Shown: positions 12,731-14,323 of the stretch, piece after piece | How the letters are laid out: each line of letters opens with the position of its first letter | Position numbering within the stretch: position 1 is the stretch's first letter | From: Desulfobacca sp. | GTDB taxonomy: Bacteria; Desulfobacterota; Desulfobaccia; Desulfobaccales; Desulfobaccaceae | Direction: 5' to 3' | Length of the DNA: 37,992 nucleotides | Assembly (NCBI GenBank): GCA_028695935.1 | Contig: JAQVHY010000009.1 | Location: forward strand, 1 to 37,992 | Translations under genes and position numbers: made by a program | Notes under the pieces: model-generated | Databases searched by the model: none | Told to the model about the DNA's origin: nothing | What the model saw: the letters and a program-made list of their open reading frames with translations, nothing else

Positions 12731-13042
12731 CTAGAAAGTTATCACCTTATTAGCCTCGGCCATCAATTCATACAAATCGTCCATCCAACCTATGGGGCAG
12801 CTGCTTGATCCCTCCAGACCGTGGGATTTCATGCAAACCCCTCAGACAAAAAAATCTCCCTCGAACTGATTGATTTGCCCCATAACATCAAAATGCTCGT
12901 TTCCTGCCTGTTCAAATAGAACGCCCTTTCCGAGCATAAAGACGCTGACCTCATCTCCTTTTTTGACACCGACGTTTGCCAGTCGCATGGCATTGAAGAT
13001 GGTTTCGCCGTCGTCTGTGGTAATGATAAACAAGACTTTCAT
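12731..13042 (-). CDS. DsrE-family selenoprotein (in-frame TGA read as Sec67)
   Basis: The full 103-residue frame runs from ATG 13042 to TAG 12731 with one internal TGA at 12844-12842. The N-terminal part is a typical DsrE/DsrF-like fold (MKVLFIITTDDGETIFNAMR; VSVFMLGKGV). The TGA falls where this family has its reactive cysteine, giving V-U-G-V-C-M-K, a U-x-x-C motif (U67, C70). The frame continues normally to the C-terminus (WMDDLYELMAEANKVITF), which argues against simple decay. DsrE-like proteins relay sulfur in persulfide form and are a previously reported bacterial selenoprotein family. It lies 13 bases after the thioredoxin-like selenoprotein gene and is probably in the same operon. 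Confidence 0.82.
12794..12841 (-). promoter_or_regulatory. SECIS-like hairpin of the DsrE-like selenoprotein
   Basis: Directly after the TGA (12844-12842), ATCCC pairs with GGGAT (plus-strand 12808-12827), enclosing a loop with GGTCT. An alternative inner pairing is CCA with TGG around CGGTC. An outer GGGG/CCCC pair (12838-12841 with 12794-12797) may extend it. The GGT falls at +25 to +27 from the T of TGA, the same register as in the two neighbouring genes. Bacterial SECIS elements sit just 3' of the Sec codon, and the E. coli fdhF loop likewise contains GGUCU. Confidence 0.6.
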
Positions 13043-13055
13043 TTTTTTGACCCCA

Positions 13056-13310
13056 TTACAGTTTCTGAGACAAAAAGCTCTCCATTTTGCTCTTATCCGT
13101 TGCTACATCAAGGGGCACCCAATCGTTTTGAAAAAGGACGTTGGTCGAACTCTTAAACGTGTAACCTTTCGCCTCTTCCGAATCCAAGGTATAAATCTTT
13201 ACGTCCAGCTTATCTCCGAATTTTTCCTTCATGTCATGGGCTACACCTATAGCCTTTCTGCATGACATTCAGCCAGGATTGCCACTGTGAAAAACGATCA
13301 GTTCGGGCAT
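13056..13310 (-). CDS. Thioredoxin-fold selenoprotein with UMSC motif (in-frame TGA read as Sec14)
   Basis: The 84-residue frame from ATG 13310, behind an excellent GAGGAGGAA ribosome binding site, runs to TAA 13056 with a TGA at codon 14. It reads MPELIVFHSGNPG-U-MSC-RKAIG, that is a first beta strand, then U-x-x-C at the head of helix 1, exactly where thioredoxin- and glutaredoxin-like proteins have CxxC. After it come VAHDMKEKFGDKLDVKIYTLDS and a C-terminal half ending MESFLSQKL. The good ribosome binding site lies only upstream of the TGA, so the shorter frame from the ATG at 13268 is unlikely to be the gene. It is probably a selenium-dependent thiol oxidoreductase. The next gene, 13 bases on, is the DsrE-like selenoprotein, a possible partner. 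Confidence 0.85.
13231..13268 (-). promoter_or_regulatory. SECIS hairpin of the thioredoxin-like selenoprotein
   Basis: Beginning at the base after the TGA (13271-13269), ATGTCATG pairs perfectly with CATGACAT (8 bp; plus-strand 13261-13268 and 13231-13238). Inside, after a CAGAAA bulge, GGCTA pairs with TAGCC (5 bp) around the apical loop TAGGTG. The GGT lies at +25 to +27 from the TGA. This is the clearest of the three SECIS candidates. Confidence 0.8.
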
Positions 13311-13394
13311 GTTAGATTCCTCCTCACAGCCATAGGGGTTAATGTTTATCCTCAATACACATTGTTCCTTGCATGGTTGCCATTTCCGGTGGCT

Positions 13395-13895
13395 CTAGTA
13401 ATTTTCTTGCCGCGGTGATTTCTTGATATCTATTAATCCTTGAGCGGATAGCTTTCCTTCCCTTCCCAGCTTGGAAAGCAGAAAAGTCGCGCCTCGGCAG
13501 GATAGGCCGAGACTCTCAGCCAGCGCCTTGTCATCCAACGGGCCGCGTGCCTTCAAAAGCTCAAGCACCTCTGCTTCCAGTTCTTCCAACCAATCCTCAA
13601 ACAGCGCCAGCAGGTCGGGGTCTGTGATTGCCGAGAGTTGCTCGGATTGGGCCACCTTGGCCACTAAGCCTCGGCACATCTGCGTTGGGTCGACACCTTC
13701 GCCCATGCACTCAGCCAGTCACAAATGCACTAAACTGGATACCTTATCGCCTTCGGACTGTCCGATCAGATTCATCAGAAAGCGCTCGCGCGCTTCGTTA
13801 TCAAGGTCCGTCAGAAGTCTTGCCAGGACCGTGGTGATTTTCGATAGGGCCTCCTCTGGGGCCATGCGGAAAACGATTTCAAAAAAATCATCCAT
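13395..13895 (-). CDS. Putative new selenoprotein, winged-helix-like (in-frame TGA read as Sec59)
   Basis: The frame runs from ATG 13895 to TAA 13395, 166 residues, with one internal TGA at 13721-13719. I do not recognise the family. The first 58 residues (MDDFFEIVFRMAPEEALSKI, then TTVLARLLTDLDNEARERFL) look all-helical. They lead into SSLVHL-U-LAECMGEG, a U-x3-C motif (U59, C63), with another Cys at 74. The last 50 residues (LELLKARGPLDDKALAESLG, then LLSKLGREGKLSAQ) resemble a winged-helix domain. Coding character is the same on both sides of the TGA, and a SECIS-like hairpin follows in the shared register. A GGAGG lies about 12 bases before the ATG. The gene starts 24 bases after the ArsR gene ends. 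It could be a selenium/thiol-sensing regulator or adaptor of the neighbouring redox proteins; this is inference. A nonsense mutation is the alternative. Confidence 0.7.
13686..13705 (-). promoter_or_regulatory. SECIS-like hairpin of the third selenoprotein
   Basis: TGGGCGA (+17 to +23 from the TGA) pairs with TCG-A-CCCA (+29 to +36, one bulged A), a 7-bp stem with apical loop AGGTG. The GGT falls at +25 to +27, the same as in the two downstream genes. The stem is compact and continuous, as expected of a bacterial SECIS upper helix. Confidence 0.7.
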
Positions 13896-13918: not shown

Positions 13919-14323
13919 TTAAAAGGTCTTTCTCGCCGACAAGAGATCCGTGGCCACCCCGCTCAACGTTCGTATCACGTCCAATATTCTCGCATCTGAC
14001 AGTTCATAGTAAATAAATGGTCCCTGGCGCTCCACCTTGACCAACAGGGAACGCTTCAACTCCTTCAAATGATGTGACACCAGCGGTTGCGACAGCTCCA
14101 ATTCCTCGACGATGGCGGAAACCGATTTTTTCCCACCGCTGATGAATAGCAGTATTCTCAGGCGGTTGCTGTCTGACAGACTCTTGGCTAGAAAGGCGGT
14201 GCTGTGCAGACGATCATTATCCAGCCGGCATTGCACCATAAATCCATTGTTGCGCCCGACCGCATCCGGTAAAATCCGATTTTGCTCTTCCGGCGACACT
14301 TGCTTTTCGGTATTACCCACCAT
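13919..14323 (-). CDS. ArsR-family transcriptional regulator
   Basis: A 134-residue winged-helix repressor. After a non-conserved N-terminal tail of about 40 residues come AKSLSDSNRLRILLFISGGK, the recognition helix region ELELSQPLVSHHLKELKRSL and the wing VERQGPFIYYELSD. The metal-site motif ELCVCDL of ArsR proper is absent; only one cysteine (C32) is present, so classic arsenic sensing is unlikely. The sequence before ATG 14323 lacks a clear ribosome binding site, so translation may depend on the upstream trxB remnant ending at 14342. A 22-base palindrome in the cluster promoter is a good operator candidate. Confidence 0.9.
   Translation of the reverse strand: MVGNTEKQVSPEEQNRILPDAVGRNNGFMVQCRLDNDRLHSTAFLAKSLSDSNRLRILLFISGGKKSVSAIVEELELSQPLVSHHLKELKRSLLVKVERQGPFIYYELSDARILDVIRTLSGVATDLLSARKTF

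Follow-up and report, generated by a model that had tools for sequence, protein, structure and literature searches.

The 37,992-nucleotide window analysed here (positions 1 to 37,992 of contig JAQVHY010000009.1, assembly GCA_028695935.1, from Desulfobacca sp.) carries on its minus strand, at positions 13310-13056, a short gene that we identify with a probability of roughly 0.93 as tsoX, encoding a selenoprotein in which the TGA at 13271 is read as selenocysteine (Sec). This reading is founded on a match to a curated family model, the retention of the TGA among relatives, a covarying stem in the selenocysteine insertion sequence (SECIS) and the complete Sec machinery of the genome, and the same evidence upholds the initial annotation of this DNA, which had proposed a selenoprotein. 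Against the NCBIfam model NF045809 (‘HSGNPxU motif (seleno)protein TsoX’; curated cut-off 52 bits) the frame scores 145.2 bits, with 81 of the 82 positions aligned, and it carries the family motif, HSGNPxU with UxxC, in the form HSGNPGUMSC. The gene therefore belongs to a family that has already been described (Haft and Tolstoy, mSystems, 2025, as listed in the review PMC13188914), and it is a well-supported further member of that catalogued group. In the literature, with the 2025 description represented by its entry in that review, we found no tested function for the family. The gene shares with catalogued TsoX the same sequence, both motifs and the company of TsoA and TsoR; nothing essential differs, except that the genome has no TsoB or TsoC and that a selenoprotein of the DsrE family lies beside tsoX. 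SaoT of the SAO system (NF040730) is likewise a small UxxC thioredoxin-like selenoprotein from an operon with several selenoproteins, but TsoX scores only 15 bits against the SaoT cut-off of 65.

Translation of the minus strand yields 84 residues, beginning MPELIVF and ending FLSQKL, and the sole in-frame TGA (13269-13271) is codon 14, where the residues flanking Sec read MPELIVFHSGNPG-U-MSC. A strong ribosome binding site, GAGGAGGAATCTAACATG, precedes ATG 13310 (GAGGAGGA at 13318-13325, minus strand, 7 nucleotides before the start), whereas the ATG at 13268 that begins the standard-code alternative follows GGCTGA and lacks one. The start, the coordinates and the position of the TGA as the first residue of a C-x-x-C-like motif are thus exactly as first proposed, and ordinary open reading frame (ORF) calling does shorten the protein to the next ATG, giving an ORF at 13056-13268 of 70 amino acids. 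This ORF call is also the one argument for supposing that the TGA at 13271 is a true stop, with the gene being either a 70-residue protein from ATG 13268 or a pseudogene. However, the HSGNP stretch ahead of the TGA is kept as protein among relatives. Roughly half of the codon differences on the 5' side of the TGA are synonymous and third positions vary most, a pattern that coding sequence would be expected to show. Moreover, the residue at ATG 13268 is not methionine in many relatives, and the genome is equipped to insert Sec. The conserved sequence ahead of the TGA, the lack of a ribosome binding site for ATG 13268 and the covarying SECIS described below together lead us to reject a true stop or a pseudogene as extremely improbable.

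Among 395 genomes from the phylum Desulfobacterota and 389 from one class, 20 and 27, respectively, scored above the NF045809 cut-off, and a scan of genome contigs added three further loci, all encoding Sec. In 46 distinct sequences, the window included, a TGA stands at exactly the codon-14 position, with conserved protein sequence to either side of it. The sole sequence without it among relatives above the cut-off (L038:158-397) reads HSGNPDLTRC, with leucine in place of Sec, and is probably a decayed or repurposed copy. No cysteine orthologue of TsoX was present in the two genome samples or the contig scan, and the plasmids searched held no TsoX match at all. The alignment with cysteine homologues that had been suggested as a check consequently gave a divided result: no orthologue has Cys14 and one has leucine, but cysteine does occupy the aligned place in remote thioredoxins that score far beneath the cut-off (L041-L044, L075 and L076). 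Among other copies, one genome (G623) has two tandem tsoX genes (L056), both with the TGA, and two loci appear broken (L063 and L074), one by an extra TAG and the other through loss of the N-terminal active site.

Directly after the TGA, the RNA is predicted to fold into a hairpin (13231-13268, minus strand) with eight lower pairs, six upper pairs, the sixth being U-G, and an AGGU loop. The conserved part, which forms the core of the SECIS, consists of the upper stem of 6 bp (13254-13249 with 13244-13239) and the loop at 13248-13245. The fold has an energy of -15.5 kcal/mol, and none of 200 dinucleotide shuffles is as stable (z -3.4). Bacterial SECIS (bSECIS) elements are expected to have an apical loop of 3-9 nucleotides with a G within its first two positions, an upper stem of 4-16 bp, a UGA-to-loop distance of 16-37 nucleotides and an energy of at most -7.5 kcal/mol (PMC13188914). 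The tsoX hairpin lies within every one of these limits, with a 4-nucleotide loop, G at loop position 2, a 6-bp stem and a spacing of 20 nucleotides, and judged by its sequence it is a typical bacterial SECIS. An Rfam scan of the window returned nothing at the gathering score.

It is the covariation across the family that makes this SECIS convincing. Counted from the U of UGA in the 46 sequences, the upper stem comprises columns 18-23 paired with columns 28-33, and 96.7% of its cells are paired, as opposed to 20-51% when the stem is slid by one to three columns. Columns 21 and 30, which are the third bases of alanine and valine codons, hold U-A in 34 sequences and C-G in 10 with no mixtures of these, and neither change alters the protein. 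The full set of six upper pairs is present in 39 of the 46 sequences, compared with a mean of 6.2 when synonymous codons are drawn at random and a mean of 27.5 (maximum 33 in 1000 trials) when codons are shuffled within columns, although these are not to be taken as probabilities because the relatives share ancestry. RNAalifold recovers exactly the upper stem and no other. The lower stem is paired in 57% of cells, its innermost pair occurs in 7 of 46 sequences, and it is nearly private to the window; because the family does not conserve it, we reject this 8-bp stem as part of the SECIS. The hairpin had originally been described as a perfect 8-bp lower stem topped by a 5-bp upper stem. The folding check thus turned out favourably and the lower stem does form in the window RNA, but the upper stem has six pairs and only this part is conserved.

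Several observations limit the support for the selenoprotein reading. Compared with a synonymous-codon null, the fold energy of the window sequence is less extreme (z -1.6, p 0.07), so that the single-sequence fold by itself is only suggestive; the shared ancestry of the relatives makes the covariation p-value too small; and there is no cysteine orthologue to anchor the active site. This last feature is unusual, given that nearly all selenoproteins have cysteine homologues (PMC13188914). Even so, the lack of a cysteine homologue makes a poor refutation, because the conservation of both the TGA and the SECIS is the stronger evidence. From the sequences in hand, TsoX looks like a Sec-only family.

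The genome, which is rated 99% complete, is also not short of Sec machinery, whose absence had been named beforehand as a reason to abandon the claim: SelA (601.4 bits), SelB (384.8 bits), SelD (368.7 bits) and tRNA-Sec (79.3 bits, where the gathering score is 47) are all present. In bacterial selenoproteins, SelB brings Sec-tRNA to the UGA. On tsoX mRNA, a ribosome starting at ATG 13310 would reach the UGA at 13271, where SelB with Sec-tRNA would insert Sec while the hairpin presents its recognised AGGU loop 20 nucleotides downstream. We infer that this insertion takes place in the cell and that tsoX is transcribed together with its neighbours. The SelD gene (L010, G000:C21:7934-8851) has a TGA of its own in the active-site place (GUASKV), and SelD in this genome is probably itself a selenoprotein.

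The thioredoxin fold that had been proposed for the protein is likewise supported by modelling. A profile of 34 TsoX sequences searched against solved structures matched thioredoxins (1nho, E 2e-5), and the AlphaFold model (mean predicted local distance difference test score 96.3) has the order strand-helix-strand-strand-strand-helix-helix and superimposes on thioredoxins over 80 of 84 residues with a root-mean-square deviation of about 2 Å and Z scores of 9.6-11. TsoX and thioredoxins (E. coli TrxA, PDB 2trx; PDB 1nho) have in common this predicted fold and an active-site pair, spaced by two residues, where the first helix begins. The differences are that TsoX has Sec for the first cysteine, a shorter N-terminus, about 18% identity to 2trx, and serine for the cis-proline before strand 3 (FKS-STNV versus IRGIPTQ). 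Because serine takes the place of the cis-proline in almost all members, TsoX does not appear from its sequence to be a plain thioredoxin, and an oxidoreductase activity is at most putative.

This last feature bears on the function implied by the initial annotation, in which TsoX would reduce disulfides much as thioredoxins do, its Sec serving simply to increase the speed. The fold, the UxxC motif and the profile matches to thioredoxins are what this proposal would lead one to expect, and a remnant of a thioredoxin reductase gene lies just upstream of tsoR. However, the cis-proline place holds serine or alanine in nearly all relatives and proline in two, HSGNP is a separate and strongly conserved feature of TsoX, and the reductase gene is broken here. 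We therefore regard an ordinary reductase as rather unlikely. The remnant itself (14910-14342, minus strand) comprises the flavin adenine dinucleotide half, up to GVSYCAT, followed one frame off by the C-terminal end, GDLRQKYANQIVLAAADG. Its domain for NADPH (reduced nicotinamide adenine dinucleotide phosphate) is missing, which suggests an internal deletion, a pseudogene or a misassembly.

The other genes around tsoX, all on the minus strand, invite a different proposal. Upstream lie tsoA (13395-13895; NF045695, 206 bits, cut-off 170), which encodes a selenoprotein of the LULAXC-motif type (here LULAEC) with its TGA as codon 59 at 13721-13719, and tsoR (13919-14323; NF045707, 165.6 bits, cut-off 115), which encodes an ArsR/SmtB-type regulator. 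TsoR resembles the sulfur-sensing BigR, yet falls far below the BigR family cut-off. The RNA immediately after the tsoA TGA is no more stable than its shuffles, and a SECIS is not obvious there. Downstream, 13 bases past the tsoX stop, begins a DsrE-family gene on which the initial annotation is silent (12731-13042; Pfam DsrE, 38.3 bits, cut-off 22.7) with an in-frame TGA as U67 (codon 12844-12842) in the motif FFVUGVC, which ordinary ORF calling cuts to 66 amino acids. This neighbour shares its family (PF02635) and the UxxC motif with the DsrE-like selenoprotein listed in PMC13188914, but matches no NCBIfam model above cut-off. Relatives of it with 81-86% identity, all with the TGA, lie directly behind tsoX in genomes G184, G145 and G395. 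TsoA and TsoR exceed their cut-offs, but a full Tso operon can be rejected, since TsoB and TsoC are absent from this genome; the best TsoB score is 74 bits, where 805 is required, and TsoC has no match.

Considering the DsrE partner with its UxxC motif, the sulfite-exporter-type permeases found in relatives and the ArsR-type regulator, we tentatively propose, at odds somewhat below even, that TsoX is part of a sulfane-sulfur or selenium redox relay. TsoX would be produced together with TsoA and the DsrE-family selenoprotein, next to the ArsR-type TsoR. With TsoR in control, its Sec14/Cys17 pair would work in relay with the DsrE protein, either carrying sulfane sulfur (or selenium) or reducing it. 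As to permeases, a TauE/SafE permease gene comes next on the same strand in G184, as does a gene for a SLAC1-family permease in G145 and G357. There are reasons for caution about the relay. All of the evidence for it comes from gene neighbours, no such permease adjoins the genes in the window, and TsoX occurs elsewhere with other neighbours, such as a methyltransferase gene in L047, so that its relay partner is not fixed.

The same neighbourhood might also be taken to mean that the Sec/Cys pair binds a metal, a metalloid or an iron-sulfur centre and performs no redox catalysis. An ArsR/SmtB-type regulator adjoins, the cis-proline is missing, and a 2007 study, as cited in PMC2757866, lends this idea some support. 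However, few possible ligands are conserved beyond His8, Sec14 and Cys17, and TsoR offers no assigned ligand, and we consider a binding function of this kind unlikely.

Within the window’s own class, tsoX occurs in 1 of 29 genomes, and further genomes from its genus and family are without it. The closest relatives, at 82-83% identity, belong to different lineages, of which one is named Desulfobacteraceae. Given this patchy spread, the location of the closest relatives and the low G+C (guanine plus cytosine) fraction of tsoX (0.44 versus 0.53 for the window), horizontal arrival is suggested, although composition adds little because adjoining DNA, as far back as about 10.5 kb, also falls below the average. 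Since the TsoA-TsoX-DsrE order recurs in other genomes, one speculative and rather doubtful extension would be that TsoR-TsoA-TsoX-DsrE forms a distinct, horizontally moving operon of three selenoproteins that lacks TsoB and TsoC, in which a TsoX with neither a cysteine form nor the cis-proline would pass sulfane sulfur or selenium on to the DsrE selenoprotein, and a TauE or SLAC1-family permease would serve for export in some genomes.

The initial annotation correctly recognised a selenoprotein with a thioredoxin fold and erred in details alone, namely the lower stem and the use of a cysteine homologue as a test. Beyond this, the present analysis contributes evidence that the SECIS covaries, that the family looks Sec-only and largely lacks the cis-proline, and that the TsoR-TsoA-TsoX-DsrE arrangement recurs. 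Three adjacent genes, tsoA, tsoX and the DsrE gene, are each shortened or misread by standard calling because each contains an in-frame TGA. Furthermore, a family that is seemingly unable to dispense with selenium offers a good test case for functions of Sec that lie out of reach for cysteine.
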